DNA of 50,233 nt from Bacteroidales bacterium (lineage in GTDB: Bacteria > Bacteroidota > Bacteroidia > Bacteroidales > Bacteroidaceae). A program made the translations under genes and the position numbers. Positions 6,804 through 42,389 of the stretch are shown here, in pieces. The stretch spans positions 1 through 50,233 of the forward strand of contig JAAYUD010000095.1 in the NCBI GenBank assembly GCA_012517855.1, given 5' to 3'. The notes beneath the pieces are model-generated. The model had not been told where the DNA came from. It was given only the letters and a program-made list of their open reading frames with translations, and did not search any database. Numbering within the stretch: the stretch's first letter is position 1; the number at the start of each line of letters is the position of its first letter.

Positions 6804-6849
6804 CTCAAAAAAATATGAGAAAAAGAATCGAAAATTATAATATTATTGA

Positions 6850-6857
6850 TAACTTTG
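6850..6857 (+). promoter_or_regulatory. -7 box of the cobalamin-uptake operon
   Basis: TAACTTTG matches the Bacteroidetes -7 consensus and lies immediately before the riboswitch, so the transcript would begin near 6864. The -33 region is weak. It is divergent from, and about 50 bases away from, the probable promoter of the DUF5686 gene. Confidence 0.55.
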
Positions 6858-6864
6858 CAGCGCA

Positions 6865-7050
6865 TTGGCTTGCAATCTGCCTTTAATCGGCGGAAAGCAA
6901 TTAAAAGGGAATCAGGTGAGAATCCTGGACAGTCCCGCTGCTGTATGTTCCAATTTTAGTAACAGACAAATCTTTATGCCACTGGATGATCGGTAAATCT
7001 GGGAAGGCGTTTGTTACGGAACGAGTCAGAAAACCTACCATGCAGTTCTT
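6865..7050 (+). promoter_or_regulatory. Adenosylcobalamin (B12) riboswitch
   Basis: The conserved core elements of the cobalamin riboswitch are present in order: AAAAGGGAA and GGTGAGAATCC at 6903-6925, GGACAGTCCCGCTGCTGTA to about 6945, GCCACTGG near 6978, GGGAAGGC at 7001-7008, and the 3' segment GAGTCAGAAAACCTACC around 7024-7040. The element lies about 200 bases upstream of a BtuB-like receptor gene, the expected target. High intracellular cobalamin should switch the operon off. Confidence 0.93.
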
Positions 7051-7190
7051 TAGTTTCACAGCTTTCGATGGAAAAGCGTTGGACGTTCATTGTAATAAAC
7101 TCTTTGTGGTTTATTATCTTATTCATTTCAACCTCTTTTGTCTACGAAAGATGTAGGTTATTGATAAACACTGCCATGTTTATTGAATGC

Positions 7191-13181: not shown

Positions 13182-14456
13182 ATGAAACGAATATTCATCA
13201 CACTCTTAGCATTGATGGCGATGGTCGGTGCTAGCGCAATGACGGAAAGTAGAGTACGCACTGAAACATTATTTCTGACAGATAAAATGGCGTATGAGTT
13301 GAGATTAAGCAGCTCTCAATATAATGATGTTTATGAAATCAATTATGATTTTATGAGTGCCGTATCCAATATTATGGACGATGTCGTTTATGGTGAAAGC
13401 TGGGCGCTTAATGATTATTATGAAGCTCTTGATATACGTAATGATGATTTGAGGTGGGTTTTGAGTGCTTCACAATATCGTCGTTTTCTGGGAGCGGAAT
13501 ATTTTTGTCGCCCTATTTACCAAACAAATGCTGGATGGGGGTTGAGAATTTATATTACCTATACCAATCCGAATATTTATTATTGTCGTTGGCCCAGTGC
13601 GTATAGGACATACTTTGGTGGGCACTACCGTGGTGGGTTCGATGATACAAGTTACTACCGTTATAGATATTCTCGCGTTTCACATTATAACAGACCTTTC
13701 CGTATGAACGGCGATGGTTATCGTTATAATACCTATGTAAATCGAGATTTTAAAAGATCTGGAGATAACCGCTATTATAATAATCGTAACAGTAACCCGG
13801 GCTTTCATATCGGAAATGATAATTCAGGTAATAATAACCGCGGTAATAGGTATGATAACAACAATAGATATTATAACAACAATAATGTCAATAATAATAA
13901 CAATAATAGGGGCAACGTAAACAATAACATAAATAATAGCAACGTCAATAATACCAATCGCAATTATAATAGGAATAATGGTGGCGGGTATGATAGAAAT
14001 TTGGATACTAATTCTCCTCGTGGCAAGAATGTTGATGTAAATACTAATATTAATACCAATAACAATAATAATAACAACGTCAATAATACCAATCGCAATT
14101 ATAATAGGAATAATGGTGGCGGGTATGATAGAAACGTGGATAGTAATTATCCTCGTGGTAAGAATGTTGATGTAAATACCAATACCAATAACAATAACAA
14201 CGTCAATAATACTAACCGCAATTATAATAGGAATAATGGTAGTGGTTACGATAAAAATGTGGATAATAATTCATCTCGTAATAAAAATGTCGACGTAAAT
14301 AATAACAGTAATAATAATAGTAGCAGAAGAAATTATGATCGTCCGGTCAAGACTCCTAATAATGTTGACCGCCCCGTGCCCGTGTCTTCTCCTAATAAAG
14401 TGGTAACAAAACCTGCTACTCCGACTAAAGACACAGAAAAGCATTCTAGAAGGTAA
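13182..14456 (+). CDS. Secreted Asn-rich repeat protein, function unknown
   Basis: Starting at the ATG at 13182, a signal peptide (MKRIFITLLALMAMVGASA) is obvious; the frame opens farther upstream at 13149. The first ~130 mature residues form an ordered-looking helical and aromatic domain (LTDKMAYELRLSSSQYNDVYEINYDF, LSASQYRRFLGAEYF). It resembles the N-terminal region of many small Bacteroidales secreted proteins with unknown role. From about residue 200 onward the sequence is Asn/Tyr/Arg-rich, with three near-identical repeats of the pattern VNNTNRNYNRNNG-GYD-N-RNKNVDVN, and a short Pro/Thr-rich tail. The repeat part is probably disordered. No family function is recognised. A terminator follows directly. 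Confidence 0.8.
   Translation: MKRIFITLLALMAMVGASAMTESRVRTETLFLTDKMAYELRLSSSQYNDVYEINYDFMSAVSNIMDDVVYGESWALNDYYEALDIRNDDLRWVLSASQYRRFLGAEYFCRPIYQTNAGWGLRIYITYTNPNIYYCRWPSAYRTYFGGHYRGGFDDTSYYRYRYSRVSHYNRPFRMNGDGYRYNTYVNRDFKRSGDNRYYNNRNSNPGFHIGNDNSGNNNRGNRYDNNNRYYNNNNVNNNNNNRGNVNNNINNSNVNNTNRNYNRNNGGGYDRNLDTNSPRGKNVDVNTNINTNNNNNNNVNNTNRNYNRNNGGGYDRNVDSNYPRGKNVDVNTNTNNNNNVNNTNRNYNRNNGSGYDKNVDNNSSRNKNVDVNNNSNNNSSRRNYDRPVKTPNNVDRPVPVSSPNKVVTKPATPTKDTEKHSRR
13941..14300 (+). repeat. Three tandem near-identical repeats inside the Asn-rich gene
   Basis: Copies beginning with AACGTCAATAATAC start at 13941, 14076 and 14199, giving periods of 135 and 123 bases. Both periods are multiples of 3, so reading frame is kept. 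The DNA identity is high, with length variation in the AAT/AAC runs between copies, as expected for slippage or recombination. Confidence 0.85.
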
Positions 14457-26846: not shown

Positions 26847-26943
26847 CTTTATATATACCAGTTATTATGCAATGCGTTATTGTGTGGAATCTATTAATGC
26901 CAGAAAAGGATCTGTATGTTCTTTTTTTTATGTCCTTATATAT

Positions 26944-27013
26944 CTTGCGACTCACGCCCGTGAGTCGCAAGTTTCGTCCTTATGTTTTTTCCGACTCACG
27001 GGCGTGAGTCGCA
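26944..27013. repeat. Twin GACTCACG/CGTGAGTC palindromes
   Basis: Two hairpins 44 bases apart share the half-site GACTCACG-CGTGAGTC. The first has loop CC (core 26949-26966) and an outer stem reaching 26944-26971; the second has loop GG (core 26993-27010). The cores are exact reverse complements of each other. They lie in the 500-base gap between the epimerase terminator and the tricorn-type gene. A REP-like repetitive palindrome, a tandem operator or a terminator pair are possible. Confidence 0.75.
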
Positions 27014-27284
27014 AGGTACATCATAACGAAAAAATATTTTTGTCTTCTTTAAATACTAAAGCCTTTGAGTGGATTTTATTCGTTATACTTATCTTTCTTT
27101 TCTCGCTTATGATGAATGGAGCGGTAAGGGGCGCATTTGCTAACCGTTTAGTGATGATGTAAGCAAAATATATTAGTCAAGAGTGTGTGGAAATACAAAA
27201 TAATTTCTAATTTTGTGTGCTATAAATCTAGTAATGAATAATAAACCTTTTTTTTGTAATTGAAATTAAAATAAAAATAAGAGC

Positions 27285-38260: not shown

Positions 38261-39006
38261 AGCCCAAAAGTCATTATTTATTTATTATTTTATGATAAAA
38301 ATATGTTTTCTCTATTCTTGTGTGTTTATCAATTCGTTTTATTTTATTATCAATAAGTGTATGAACGAAATGATGCATTTCGTTTTTGACATTGTTATAT
38401 GGGCAGGAAAGTTTATTTTTGGTGTGATACTCTTATGGTTCGCAAAATTTATATTATAGCATATTTAGATTAGCAGGTTTCGTCTTTTTGTTTTCAGGTT
38501 ATCATTATGTAGTATATAATACAATAATGTGAGACAATATGGATAAAAAGGATGATATAAATAGTGTCTTTTGCAAGCTATTTTTGATATATTATGATTA
38601 CTGATGAATTTTTATATTTCATATTGATAATGGAATATTGTCGTATGTTACTCTTCAAGAATCTATGTGCACGTCGATTCCTACCAAAATCTTTTGTCCT
38701 TTGAAGCAAATTCTGTTTCTGTGCATAGTGGTACGGTTTTAATTGTTATTTGTATTTTGGGGGTTTACAAATCATAGTATTCAATTATTATCGTGCCTAC
38801 TTTTTTGTCTAAATCCATGAAAAACATTCGAGGGATGCTGTCTCATGGGGGCAGAAAGCCCCCCATGAGACAATTTCCTTTGAAGTTTATTAGTATGGAC
38901 TAGCCACTGTTGGCATATGCAAACATAGTGACTGTTTATCAAAAAGAATCTGTTCGGTATGGTTAAAATAGTATCAGTATCGCCCCAAATATTCATCTCC
39001 AAAAAC
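38261..39006. other. AT-rich gene-free interval up to the IS66 insertion
   Basis: No supported gene lies between the AraC regulator and the IS66 element. The interval is AT-rich and holds one strong GC-rich inverted repeat (38839-38872). A short minus-strand frame of 73 codons overlaps that repeat and is not supported. The 3' end is the target site of the IS66 insertion. Confidence 0.5.
38839..38872. repeat. Strong 13-bp inverted repeat
   Basis: TGTCTCATGGGGG (38839-38851) pairs perfectly with CCCCCATGAGACA (38860-38872) around CAGAAAGC. It is GC-rich in an AT-rich neighbourhood, and no T tract follows immediately on either strand. It may be a transcription end, an element end or a regulator site. 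Confidence 0.7.
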
Positions 39007-39014
39007 GTTCCGAA
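39007..39014. repeat. Left 8-bp target site duplication of the IS66 element
   Basis: GTTCCGAA immediately precedes the left terminal repeat and recurs identically at 41566-41573 beyond the right end. Eight bases is the usual IS66 target duplication, so this is one complete transposition. Confidence 0.95.
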
Positions 39015-39081
39015 GTAAGCGTCTCGGCGATTATGCCTTTTCCGTTTATCTCCGGCTCGTTACCTTTGTGGTGAATTAAAA

Positions 39082-39504
39082 ATGAAATTAGAAATGGTAC
39101 GATCAAAAACGGCAGAAATGCGATTTCGACATTTGTGGGAGATGTTCGGTAAGGAACTCACAGTGAATTATCACTGCAGTTTATCAGAAATTGCGGCTAA
39201 AAACCGTACGGACTTGAATGGGATGCGCAGCTGGATGCTCGACCGTGGGCATTCGGTATCCGGGCTAAAGAAAGAGGTTCTCCATCGCTATTACGGTGGC
39301 TCCATACCCGACGTCAAGGAGGCGGGGCGGATGTTCACACCGATAGTGGCGTCCGGTACCCCGAGAGAGGCGCCTCCATTACAGGGCATCCATATCACCT
39401 TCAACAGCGGTACGAGTGTCACCGTTAAAGCGGCGACTCCCGAGGGTCTAACGGATCTGATTCGGAGTTACGAAAGAATGGAGGGCGAGTCATGTACTCT
39501 TTGA
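39082..39504 (+). CDS. tnpA: IS66 TnpA-type accessory protein
   Basis: The 140-residue product has an N-terminal helix-turn-helix-like part (MRFRHLWEMFGKELTVNYHCSLSEIAAKNRTDLNGMRSWMLDRGHSVSGLKKEV) and a C-terminal tail, as in the first ORF of IS66 elements. The -7-like box TACCTTTG at 39062-39069 lies 12 bases before the ATG. Its last 13 bases overlap tnpB, suggesting translational coupling. Function is not established for the family beyond a need in transposition. Confidence 0.85.
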   Translation: MKLEMVRSKTAEMRFRHLWEMFGKELTVNYHCSLSEIAAKNRTDLNGMRSWMLDRGHSVSGLKKEVLHRYYGGSIPDVKEAGRMFTPIVASGTPREAPPLQGIHITFNSGTSVTVKAATPEGLTDLIRSYERMEGESCTL

Positions 39505-39842
39505 CGTCAAGCAACAAATATTACCTGTATCAAGGGTATGTCCGAATGAATCGGGGTATTGACGGACTTTACAAGATGATACGTTCTGAGATGAAGGAGC
39601 TCTCTCCCGTTTCGGGTGACGCATTCATCTTCTTCGGAAAGAAAAGACAAAGCGTGAAGATACTCAAGTGGGACGGCGACGGTTTTTTGCTGTATTACAA
39701 ACGGCTTGAGGGCGGCAGTTTCGAAGTACCCGTTTTCAACCCGCGTACGGGCAATTACGAGATCGGATGGAACACACTCTCCTTTATTCTCAGCGGAGTG
39801 TCGCTGAAGTCTGTAAGGCTGCGAAAGCGTTTCCGGATATAG
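39492..39842 (+). CDS. tnpB: IS66 Orf2-like accessory protein TnpB
   Basis: The 116-residue product has the IS66 Orf2 (PF05717-type) pattern: MNRGIDGLYKMIRSEM, DAFIFFGKKRQSVKILKWDGDGFLLYYKRLEGG and the C-terminal NPRTGNYEIGWNTLSFILSGV. It is necessary for transposition in studied IS66 members, but its biochemistry is unclear. It overlaps tnpA by 13 bases and ends 87 bases before tnpC. Confidence 0.9.
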   Translation: MYSLTSSNKYYLYQGYVRMNRGIDGLYKMIRSEMKELSPVSGDAFIFFGKKRQSVKILKWDGDGFLLYYKRLEGGSFEVPVFNPRTGNYEIGWNTLSFILSGVSLKSVRLRKRFRI

Positions 39843-39890
39843 CTGAAAGAGCCTGTTTATAGTGGATTAATCACAAATAAAGTCAAGTTT

Positions 39891-39925
39891 TTTGTTTGAT
39901 ATGTCGGTGATTTTTGGTACCTTTG
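39891..39925 (+). promoter_or_regulatory. Promoter within IS66, directly at the tnpC start
   Basis: TTTG at 39895-39898 is followed by 19 bases and then TACCTTTG at 39918-39925. This matches the Bacteroidetes consensus. The tnpC ATG begins only 5 bases after the -7 box, which implies a leaderless or nearly leaderless transposase mRNA. Confidence 0.75.
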
Positions 39926-39929
39926 TACT

Positions 39930-41510
39930 ATGAGAAAGGAAGAGATTGTCGAACTGTTGAAACAGCAAATTAACAGCTATAAAAAGCTGATTGATGATTT
40001 GCGCGAACAAGAGAAAAGACAATCCGAGCAAATTACGGAACTTATAACGGAAGTGGCATCCCTTAGGGAGGCACTCCTTCAGAAAGGTGAATCCCTGAGC
40101 AAACAAAAACGCGTCTGCAAGGGACTGGGCAAACTGATTGCCGTCACATCCGAGAAACAGCTCCCCCCGTCGGGGCTTCTTACAGATGAGGAAAGGCGGC
40201 GGCAGGAAGAGGAAAGAAGCCTTCAGAGGAAGGCCCGGAAGAATAACGGGGCCAGGCGTGACATGCATGCGGACATGGAGGTGGAAGAACACGACATCTA
40301 CCCCGAGCAGGCGGAGTTCGACAGGAACAAGGCTCGGCCGTTGTCGGAGAAGCTGCGTATATCCATTCGTTACGAATGCGTGCCCATGCGTTTCATTAAA
40401 CACGTCTACAAAATCCACTCTTATACACAAGACGGCCGCGTCTATACGGGCAAGACTCCCCCTTCGGCTTTCTTGAACTCCAATTACGACGCCTCCTTTA
40501 TCGCCGGACTGATGGAGCTTCGCTACATACAATCCGTACCGATGGAACGAATCATCGGTTATTTTGAAAGCCATGGCTTCACTCTGAAAAAGCCTACCGC
40601 CCATAAGCTGATTGAAAGAGCGTCCCTGTTGTTGGAGAATCTCTACAAGTGTACCGCACAAACCGTTCTTCGGGATAATTATATCTCCGCCGATGAGACG
40701 TATTACAAAATACTCGTCAGGGGAGAGAACGGCAAGGAAAGCGGAGTCAGAAAAGGGTACCTGTGGGTAATCATCGGAATGAGGAGCAAGCTGTTGTATG
40801 TCCTTTACCGGGACGGTTCACGGTCGGAAGATGTGATTCTGCGAGAGTTGGAAGACTACAGGGGCGTCATACAAAGCGACGGCTACTCTCCCTATCGGAA
40901 ACTTCAAAAAGAAGGTTATCCCCATATCACCCGAATAGCCTGCCTGCAACACGTCAAACGGAAATTTATTGATTGCGGTGAGGACGAAGAGGCAGGAAAG
41001 ATGGTGGGGTTGATCAATAAGCTGTATCATCAGGAGCACAAACATCGAATCGGAGAAAAGAACTGGACGGAAGAGAAGAATCGCAGATTCCGAAACGAAT
41101 ATGCTCCTCCGGTCCTGGAAGAAATAAGGGCGCACCTCGATCGGATAGAATCAGATCCCAGCCTGCTTCCCAAAAGCGAGCTATACGCGGCGGTCGTCTA
41201 TATGAGAAATGAATGGGACGCCATCGAGAACATCTTCAAGCACGGGGCGACAAGGCTGGACAACAATACAGTAGAGCGGATGAACCGCTATTTCTCAATT
41301 TCAAGAAGGAACTCCCTGTTTTTCGGCAGCCATAAAGGTGCCGAAAGGGGGGCCATACTCTACACGCTGGCATTGTCATGTCGCATGAATGGAATAAATC
41401 TGTTCCAATATCTCACCGATATCATCAACACGACAGCAGAGTGGCAGCCCAACACGCCACTGGAAAAATATCGGGAACTACTTCCTGACAGATACAAAAA
41501 CAACGCATAA
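39930..41510 (+). CDS. tnpC: IS66-family DDE transposase
   Basis: The 526-residue protein begins with a coiled-coil region (residues ~1-55, EQEKRQSEQITELITEVASLREALLQKG), then a zinc-binding/HTH-type region and the DDE domain. The three acidic residues are seen in YISADETYYK, GVIQSDGYSPYR and NNTVERMNRYF, and the C-terminal end carries SCRMNGINLFQYL. Everything needed for activity appears present. It has a promoter right at its start codon (39891-39925) and can be expressed apart from tnpA/tnpB. Confidence 0.95.
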   Translation: MRKEEIVELLKQQINSYKKLIDDLREQEKRQSEQITELITEVASLREALLQKGESLSKQKRVCKGLGKLIAVTSEKQLPPSGLLTDEERRRQEEERSLQRKARKNNGARRDMHADMEVEEHDIYPEQAEFDRNKARPLSEKLRISIRYECVPMRFIKHVYKIHSYTQDGRVYTGKTPPSAFLNSNYDASFIAGLMELRYIQSVPMERIIGYFESHGFTLKKPTAHKLIERASLLLENLYKCTAQTVLRDNYISADETYYKILVRGENGKESGVRKGYLWVIIGMRSKLLYVLYRDGSRSEDVILRELEDYRGVIQSDGYSPYRKLQKEGYPHITRIACLQHVKRKFIDCGEDEEAGKMVGLINKLYHQEHKHRIGEKNWTEEKNRRFRNEYAPPVLEEIRAHLDRIESDPSLLPKSELYAAVVYMRNEWDAIENIFKHGATRLDNNTVERMNRYFSISRRNSLFFGSHKGAERGAILYTLALSCRMNGINLFQYLTDIINTTAEWQPNTPLEKYRELLPDRYKNNA

Positions 41511-41565
41511 ATAAAGTATTGTATTTTTTATTTTAATAACAACGCATAATCGCGGAGACGCTTAC

Positions 41566-41573
41566 GTTCCGAA
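41566..41573. repeat. Right 8-bp target site duplication of the IS66 element
   Basis: GTTCCGAA follows directly after the right terminal repeat and equals 39007-39014. Confidence 0.95.
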
Positions 41574-41986
41574 AAAGTGATTCTCGGACACTAGTCTTCC
41601 ATTGACCACTTATATCGCTCATTATCAATATACTTGTATGAAAAATTATAGAACGCTGATTCTCAGCGAGAAGATGTATTTTAAGATGTTCCATTTAGTT
41701 ACATATTGTGTGTATAAGTCTGATAAACAATCGTTAAGCATGACGGGAAGAGGCGCTATAAGTATAATAGAAATAGTAGGGCTGTTCATACTCGCATAAG
41801 TCGTCTTTAAGTATCAGTAAGAATGGATTATTTCAACAGATCTATGTCTTCTTTACCCTCCTAAAACTACATATGTCCCTGAGATCGGTAACGTCCATAC
41901 GTTTTCAAAAAAACTTAAGGACGTCACCAGAAAAACTAACATACGACACCGACGGCCTTATTTTACTTTGCAAAAAAAATCAACCG
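41574..41986. other. Gene-free interval after IS66
   Basis: Nothing convincing is encoded between the right end of IS66 and the 22-bp repeat array. A 65-codon frame (41602-41799) has no family resemblance. One short hairpin, CGCTGA-TTC-TCAGCG (41654-41668), is present. The last part contains an outlying AACTAACA (41934-41941) related to the array. No ECF sigma gene, which usually precedes FecR, remains here. Confidence 0.5.
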
Positions 41987-42116
41987 TATGTTGCTGCGGT
42001 AACTAACGGATGTCGTAGAAGAAACTAACGTTAGTTGTCAGTATAACTTCCGTTAGTTACCGCAGTAACTTCCGTTAGTTATTACAGCGACATACGTTAG
42101 TTTTTTCTTGTGATGA
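41987..42116. repeat. Symmetric array of six 22-bp units with core CGTTAGTT
   Basis: CGTTAGTT starts at 42029, 42051, 42073 and 42095, exactly 22 bases apart. Its reverse complement AACTAACG starts at 42001 and 42023, again 22 apart. The two halves meet in the perfect 14-bp palindrome AACTAACGTTAGTT (42023-42036). In addition CTGCGGTAACTAACGGA (41994-42010) is an exact inverted copy of 42049-42065. Flanking sequences at 41934-41945 and 42142-42153 (AACTAACA / AACTAGCA followed by TACGACA) look like diverged copies. A 22-base period is two helical turns, so all cores lie on one face of the DNA. Operator, iteron or structured RNA are the candidate roles. Confidence 0.8.
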
Positions 42117-42389
42117 AAGATCTTAAAGAAGTCGCCGATAAAACTAGCATACGACAATTCTGTTTATGCCGCAGGTTAGAGAGTCTGATTGATTAAACCT
42201 TCTTACGTTTACAGGTGATCCCTTTGTAAAGGCATAGGCTCCTCAAAATCTATAGTTTTTTATGACGTATTCTTTTATTTTTAGCACTATGATGCTATCT
42301 GAAATTATAAAACATGTTTTATAACATATTAATATATGTGTTATACTTTTCTTTCTATAGGCTATTATATATAAATAAGGAATAAAAAG
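42117..42389. other. Intergenic region upstream of fecR with a 20-bp palindrome
   Basis: After the 22-bp array there is no gene before fecR. A diverged flank copy (42142-42153) and a perfect 20-bp palindrome centred on ACATGT (42305-42324) are present. A weak -7-like TATACTTT begins at 42342. Confidence 0.5.
42305..42324. promoter_or_regulatory. Perfect 20-bp palindrome upstream of fecR
   Basis: TTATAAAACA followed by its exact reverse complement TGTTTTATAA gives a dyad with no spacer, 65 bases before the fecR ATG and just upstream of the probable -7 region. It is a plausible operator for a dimeric repressor. Its AT richness makes chance somewhat more likely than for a GC-rich dyad. Confidence 0.5.

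Follow-up and report, generated by a model that had tools for sequence, protein, structure and literature searches.

The window analysed here, the whole stretch of 50,233 nucleotides from a Bacteroidales bacterium of the Bacteroidaceae (contig JAAYUD010000095.1), carried a six-unit palindromic array, designated A, at 41976-42106, the borders of which were set from an alignment of 39 copies. The array was located 284 bp ahead of the start codon of a FecR gene, and the proteins encoded beside it were FecR, a SusC-type TonB receptor, a SusD-like protein and a thioredoxin-fold protein. Other features of the window included a cobalamin riboswitch (RF00174, 86.1 bits) at 6848-7056 on the forward strand and AAT-rich tandem repeats with periods of 3-135 at 13845-14317. 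At 26932-27015, a 44-bp sequence, twice 22 in length and with a GACTCACGCCCGTGAGTC palindrome, was present as two direct repeats, and a related stretch was found at L041.

Each unit of A was a quasi-palindrome of the form AAC-N3-CG-N3-GTT, and the six units followed one another in exact 22-bp steps. Units 1 and 2 were located at 41979-41992 and 42001-42014 (CG centres 41985-41986 and 42007-42008), unit 3 at 42023-42036 was a perfect 14-bp palindrome with its CG at 42029, and units 4, 5 and 6 were located at 42045-42058, 42067-42080 and 42089-42102 (CG centres 42051-42052, 42073-42074 and 42095-42096). In the conserved core, A was flanked by an A tract on the left and a T tract on the right. 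The core CGTTAGTT was verified at 42029, 42051, 42073 and 42095 on the forward strand, and was present in reverse complement at 42001 and 42023. It was counted 6 times in the window compared to 1.44 expected, none of 100 shuffles reached 6, and all six matches, in both orientations, fell inside 102 bp. A preliminary description of this DNA had presented these cores as two sets; their positions were correct, but separate sets could not be maintained, as the centres formed one series of six in 22-bp steps. The 14-bp perfect palindrome claimed in it was exactly 42023-42036, and the inverted pair 41994-42010 and 42049-42065 was complementary at 17 of 17 positions. The phasing of the array at two helical turns was borne out by the exact steps. 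No open reading frame (ORF) of at least 60 aa extended over the array, in agreement with the non-coding nature proposed for it, and a coding array was thus rejected.

The copy in the window was the right end of a composite repeat of about 1 kb, designated E, which was later interrupted by an IS66-family element. Directly left of A, module B, a second dispersed repeat, occupied 41891-41948 with a 58-bp core and a GACGTCC/GGACGTC-type hairpin; copies elsewhere were 87-98% identical to that of the window among the best 40 of 114 candidates scored. The middle region of E was represented by its right part (41574-41890, forward strand), which was continuous with B and A, and the stretch from 41570 or 41580 to 42106 aligned with L010, L015 and others. 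A left remnant of E was recognized by alignment with L010 at about 38932-39006 (forward strand), beyond IS66; in L010 the counterparts of 38933-39007 and 41570-42106 were separated by four bases. The insertion sequence itself, foreign to the repeat, extended from 39015 to 41565 (forward strand) with TnpB at 39492-39842 and TnpC at 39930-41510, and was bordered by two 8-bp copies of its target duplication GTTCCGAA at 39007-39014 and 41566-41573 (forward strand). A second, diverged B-like stretch was located right of A at 42114-42194 (forward strand).

The dispersal of A was determined in the genome of origin (3.64 Mb, 114 contigs, 99.92% complete). A search with 41880-42200 returned 88 matches, counting both strands of the palindrome. 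R1, a sequence model of the array built from 39 copies, was applied with the best 150 of 1161 candidates being scored; it yielded at least 40 full-length copies, a further copy cut off by a contig end and about 12 that were shorter or diverged. The copies were about 131-137 bp in length and were either solitary or built into longer mosaic repeats as one of their modules. Several were located at contig ends, so these repeats probably hinder assembly. For comparison 39 of the 40 full copies were aligned, leaving aside the C33 copy and the truncated C106 copy. In 37 of the 39 aligned copies the array had no length change and every one of the five steps measured 22 bp, and the remaining two had one additional base in the central linker. 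Identity among copies was 96.4% in the AAC/CG/GTT frame, 88.5% in the N3 triplets and 84.2% in the linkers. The ends had the form AAAAA..CGTATGTCGC and GCGACATACG..TTTTT, with the A tract present in 34 and the T tract in 20 of the 39 copies.

About 12 copies of A, including that of the window, formed the right end of the non-coding repeat E, in which module M was followed by a middle part (at least two kinds were seen), by B and by A. Module M was about 410 bp long with inverted ends of its own. M and B were present at many loci without a full A, some of them with an apparently truncated A, and their copy numbers are lower bounds, given that the best 40 of 184 and of 114 candidates were scored, respectively. 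The remaining copies of A were in two other composites or solitary. In a tree of the 39 copies, 2 of 36 inner branches were well supported and no composite type formed a clade, but the types were clustered on it (16 changes compared to a shuffled mean of 21.6; 1 of 200 shuffles as low). These results suggested that A partly travels with its composite and is partly exchanged. As a side observation, M, middle part and B also made up a non-coding repeat of about 830 bp in the same genome, for example at L015:3165-3995 on the minus strand; its places, whole or partial, were 73-93% identical among the best 40 of 184 candidates scored, and this repeat is a bigger puzzle than the array.

The N3 half-site triplets differed between copies as blocks drawn from a small set. 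At the unit centred on 42073, the triplets were TTC|TTA in 22 of the 39 copies and the exact inversion, TAA|GAA, in 10, while the single copies with TAA|TTA and ATA|GAA represented new pairings of known halves. These inverted and re-paired triplets indicated that single units invert and that the CG centre is the point at which halves are exchanged. In the genome G503, the alignment of 13 copies of a four-unit element showed unit 3 inverted in L209, L214 and L215, with a few substitutions; in-place inversion of a single unit was thus found in two lineages. The history of duplication and inversion suggested in the preliminary description was thereby confirmed. Template switching, conversion, a recombinase or recombination between quasi-palindromes may account for both unit inversion and half-site exchange.

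The gene context of the copies was evaluated in 32 of 40 copies (39 full copies and that of C106), the other 8 being at contig edges. Genes were taken as ORFs of at least 120 aa with IS66 genes removed, and the background consisted of 70 gaps on contigs C16 and C70 only (14 convergent, 38 tandem and 18 divergent). The copies of A were in 16 convergent, 15 tandem and 1 divergent gaps. Compared to expectation, convergent gaps were enriched (16 versus 6.4; binomial p 1.4e-4, by gap length 3.7e-5) and divergent gaps depleted (1 versus 8.2; p 0.0017, by gap length 0.013). None of the 40 examined copies was wholly within an ORF of at least 120 aa; a neighbouring ORF overlapped A by 31 bp at L009 and by 9 bp at L019. 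The sole divergent copy was that of the window, between an AraC-type regulator gene and FecR.

An operator array controlling the FecR-SusCD genes would agree with the distance of 284 bp to the FecR start codon, with dyads phased at two turns, and with another copy that precedes a SusC-like gene by 869 bp (L043). Against this stood 21 genes of at least 120 aa whose start faced another copy of A: none encoded FecR and that SusC-like gene was the single one of its kind, while the others included a sigma factor (L018, 972 bp off), an AraC-type regulator (L009), metabolic, restriction, transport and other genes, and two without Pfam match. Moreover, about 40 copies adjoin varied genes, the divergent layout is the single case among 32, and the array belongs to a composite repeat. 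As the copies adjoin unrelated genes and convergent gaps are preferred, nothing links A to the FecR-SusCD locus. The operator reading, which is hardly credible, was rejected on copy number and gene context, and we do not take A for a regulator of FecR-SusCD. Copies of A can be mistaken for operators of an adjoining locus, as in this window.

A as a whole was an imperfect palindrome. The interval 41971-42110 folded as one long hairpin on both strands, with about -55 kcal/mol each (-54.7 and -55.4 kcal/mol by strand, z about -9.3). Together with the A and T tracts, such a hairpin could act as a bidirectional terminator or a stabiliser of mRNA 3' ends. The enrichment in convergent gaps, the depletion in divergent ones, the strong folding of both strands and the frequency of the two tracts all agree with this possibility. 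However, no excess of RNA covariation was found, either in the hairpin of A (88.5% of cells paired versus 88.3% in shuffles) or in the G503 element (81.0 versus 81.8), and the mean fold energy favoured the hairpin weakly, equally low energies being reached by 9 of 200 sets with shuffled columns (13 of 39 rows in each). Copies L040, L025, L021 and L013 adjoin an apparent ordinary GC-rich terminator. Furthermore, the T tract was absent in 12 of 13 aligned G503 elements (present in L210), and the orientation of these elements had no clear bias (4 convergent, 7 tandem and 2 divergent; n = 13). A terminator or stabiliser function of A is improbable on these results.

An amplified gene for a structured non-coding RNA would likewise fold strongly, and a TACTTTGC box 5' of A in the window copy resembles the Bacteroides -7 motif. 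The sequence upstream differed between copies, the compensatory pattern was no better than in shuffles, and an Rfam search over A gave nothing at gathering score, all matches with E ≤ 1 being far below the gathering scores, so that none was credible. An RNA gene of this kind is very improbable. Since 22 bp corresponds to about two turns of B-DNA and also to two turns of A-form RNA, the pitch could be read at the RNA level as well.

Mobility of A was assessed by its ends, by transposase genes and by replicon searches. The Y1/RAYT transposase domain PF01797 had no match in the genome of origin at 99.92% completeness, while the control matched 5 of 14 named genomes. No target duplication was detected at A: repeats of at least 4 nt flanked 14 of 39 copies compared to 17.4 in shuffles, and repeats of at least 6 nt flanked none compared to 2.5. 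The end pattern of A with up to 3 mismatches gave 99 forward and 88 reverse matches (12 and 7 for the reversed-pattern control), and none of the matches listed was traced to a transposase. The iteron reading offered in the preliminary description was not supported, because the 40 copies were scattered over many contigs and were not one or a few origin-linked arrays beside a rep gene. A plasmid or phage origin was rejected as well, as 41880-42200 had no match in plasmids and phages, and an array of the genome G688 had none in plasmids. An exact 20-mer of the A centre was absent from genome_contigs, where the genome of origin itself may be absent. In IMG/VR, the A-centre matches were isolated sites, the B pattern gave none, and the frame pattern was found on 4 contigs, near chance by rough estimate. 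On one of these 4 contigs a short A-like series was seen, at L330:4630-4780 (R1 E 2.6e-6) beside a small terminase gene (Terminase_2), which is perhaps a chance occurrence or a packaging or origin site. An integron attC site was also rejected, in that GTTAGTT does not fit the attC core GTTRRRY.

As no RAYT gene, target duplication, RNA covariation or Rfam match was found, A was taken as a non-autonomous repeat that is handled as DNA. We lean to the view that it is a REPIN/MITE-like palindromic repeat with a fixed 22-bp pitch, for which we infer a mobilising enzyme and a function. The 40 dispersed full-length copies, their mosaics, the unit inversion and the shared pitch argue for such a repeat. 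The lack of a mobilising gene (PF01797) and of target duplication at A, the clustering of composite types on the tree and the many sampled genomes without 22-bp arrays speak against it. A might be multiplied by a trans-acting enzyme, or by replication or recombination on the long hairpin or a cruciform. Reading of successive dyads by a dimeric protein, at intervals of about two turns along the same DNA face, would keep the 22-bp pitch, and the repeat could survive chiefly at sites where its cost is low, namely 3' ends and convergent gaps.

Several known repeat families resemble A in part. The claim that no element of this layout had been described in Bacteroidales has to be withdrawn in part in view of BrickBuilt, an intergenic MITE of Porphyromonas gingivalis with a 23-nt tandem array (PMC4596501); it holds in so far as the main text on BrickBuilt describes no palindrome and reports other ends, while A is palindromic over the whole element. 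Like A, BrickBuilt is a non-coding, multi-copy (19 copies) and lineage-limited element of intergenic regions in Bacteroidales, and like A within E it is a tandem array of near-equal period in a longer repeat, with leader, tail and composites of up to 991 nt (PMC4596501). It differs in its period of 23 rather than 22 nt, in a repeat number that varies, compared to six fixed units, and in its IS5-like GAGACC.. inverted repeats, where A has A and T tracts; neither its 23-nt repeats nor GAGACC-type ends were found in A. In P. gingivalis W83, 22-nt tandem repeats are also reported, at a place that the text leaves unnamed (PMC4596501). REP, REPIN and BIME elements share with A the intergenic high-copy palindromes, inverted hairpin-forming copies and module mosaics (PMC3116915, PMC3733652, PMC6006769), and high-copy extragenic palindromes in inverted arrangement are indeed what A presents. 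REPs accompanied by RAYT transposases are described as 20-40 bp long, whereas A measures 131-137 bp with units at 22-bp pitch and no Y1 gene was found in its genome. As to REPIN tags, GTAG was absent from the ends of A, and CGTC occurred at the right end only when the last triplet was TCT (13 of 39 copies).

PINSR, a 188-bp intergenic repeat of Prevotella intermedia and nigrescens with 177 and 184 copies in two strains, is comparable to A as a probably non-coding, lineage-limited repeat of related Bacteroidales with no known transposase (PMC4755523). By its description it is set apart from A, being presented there without terminal inverted repeats and with no stated 22-bp periodicity (PMC4755523). 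Conventional MITEs are non-coding and dispersed with inverted ends, and A likewise had terminal inverted repeats and, in the window copy, no ORF of at least 60 aa; A differs in that no target duplication was found at it and no parent insertion sequence was identified among the matches listed. Dispersed palindromes shape bacterial chromosomes, and few descriptions from Bacteroidales were found in our literature search. No description of palindrome arrays at 22-bp pitch in this order was found either, which is weak evidence of absence, as the search covered little of the subscription literature.

Among 31 genomes of close relatives only the genome of origin had A, and E was matched in 1 of 301 genomes when the best 2 candidates of each were scored. 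The 30 relatives included no genome of the same genus, and no empty site for A was seen. Across the order, R1 matched 3 of 393 genomes (best 8 candidates scored per genome), namely the genome of origin, G503 and G420, the latter two from other families; with 8 (R1) or 2 (E) candidates scored per genome, weak matches may be missed. The G503 element had four units with AACTACCGGTAGTT dyads, mostly without A/T-tract ends. The pair pattern AAC-N3-CG-N3-GTT-N8-AAC-N3-CG-N3-GTT had 84 matches in the genome of origin and 52 in G503, where they were distributed across many contigs; G553 had one match and the remaining 390 genomes had none, compared to a single match of the reversed control (in G445) in the same 393. 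Among 118 relatives of G503 it was also found in G689 (3), G711 (7, control 1) and G729 (2).

Because G503 and G420 had been picked out by a model of A, only their pitch spectrum, and not their presence, counts as independent evidence. The spectrum was scanned without sequence prior, by palindromes alone, requiring three similar dyads at a pitch of 15-41. For G688-G691, contigs 1-5 were sampled up to 20 kb from the contig start, or completely where shorter, and contigs 1-2 of ten mixed genomes were sampled in like manner; for G503, 140 kb of contig 2 was picked around known matches. At pitch 22, the three-dyad scan gave 4 matches in the genome of origin, 10 in G503, 9 in G420 and 1 each in G688, G689 and G690. 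The sole other pitch with matches was 33 (1, 2 and 1 in the genome of origin, G503 and G420), which is a harmonic of 22. No match was obtained in G691, the ten mixed genomes, or G004 and G008. In a stricter test on pairs of near-perfect palindromes (6 of 7), pitch 22 gave 27 pairs in 140 kb of G503, where the mean of the other pitches was 0.61 (excluding 33 and 44), and 11 pairs in the 400 kb scanned of the genome of origin, compared to an other-pitch mean of 1.32, with no clear excess in G420 (2), G688 (1), G689 (0), G690 (1) and G691 (0). When the pair test was relaxed to 6 of 8, pitch 22 led in the genome of origin (31 versus a mean of 13.2 at other pitches), G503 (46 versus 5.5), G420 (32 versus 12.7) and G688 (11 versus 3.3); in G689 it reached 5, with other pitches averaging 0.7 and peaking at 6, and it did not lead in the mixed set (7 versus 9.2) or in G004 and G008 (18 versus 19.2).

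The sequences of these 22-bp units were mostly unrelated: ATTGCCGATGCGCATCGGCAAT in G688, AAAACCCGTACGGGTTTT in G689, ACTGTCCATGCGCTTCGACAGT in G690, which additionally had AACTCCCGGGAGTT, near the G503 unit, and TTTACATACGTATGTAAA and TTGTGCGATGTACATCGCACAA in G420, which had at least three unit families. In 80 named rpoA loci (231 kb) the scan gave a single match, again at pitch 22, in the MAG Bacteroidaceae RUI360 (L108), with TGAATCGATTCA dyads shortly behind rplQ and its apparent terminator. By inspection of 18 rpoA loci, four 22-bp units, which fell short of the formal scan, were noticed behind rplQ in L120 (MAG Bacteroidaceae RGIG8693). The genome of origin likewise had a copy of A behind rplQ and a terminator, but this gap is about the only one in those loci, and the shared place may be chance. 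RpoA of the genome of origin was 89% identical to that of an uncultured Bacteroides sp. MAG and 88% to those of two Paraprevotella MAGs and MAG RUI360. The arrays of G688, G420, L108 and L120 lacked the AAC-N3-CG-N3-GTT frame, so the frame was rejected as a universal feature while the pitch is shared. The arrays of these other Bacteroidales had about 3-4 palindromic units at 22-bp pitch with other sequences.

The period was kept in the copies and recurred in other genomes, as the preliminary description had asked to be checked; overall, its array was real, non-coding, phased and shaped by duplication and inversion, and its links to FecR-SusCD and to iterons were not supported. Since the pitch is shared despite differing sequences, the arrays point to dispersed palindromic repeats of a kind so far unrecognised and not to a switch of neighbouring genes. 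We tentatively raise the possibility of an undescribed class of Bacteroidales elements set by geometry, with about 3-6 palindromes at 22-bp pitch, sequences largely turning over between species of a genus and single units that flip in place, in which a machine measuring two turns and tolerant of many different dyads, a protein filament or a hairpin-reading recombinase, would copy or maintain the arrays across families. A fixed pitch that outlives the unit sequence is a strong physical clue to the machine handling it, and with it one can test what it is that measures two turns of the helix.

The same geometry could serve chromosome organisation, with a dyad-binding protein of nucleoid or nucleoid-occlusion type polymerising over 4-6 dyads spaced by two turns at scattered anchors. 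At least 40 copies in the genome of origin and the 52 pattern matches over many contigs of G503 would suit such anchors, as would the dyad frame conserved above the linkers and the equal pitch in several lineages. However, the units differ widely among the congeneric G503, G688, G689 and G690 (only G690 also has one near the G503 unit), the three or more unit families of G420 would be surprising under a single conserved binding protein, some of the copies have been truncated or have decayed, and the two sampled members of the same family as the genome of origin had no array in 400 kb. Organising sites are thus an unlikely explanation, and the mobile-type, non-autonomous palindromic repeat is preferred for A. 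Besides these arrays, long 22-bp direct repeats AACAGTCGCGAGTTGACGACTG were observed in G711 (L280, L286); they fit the frame but resemble a plain tandem repeat, and were left uncounted as support.
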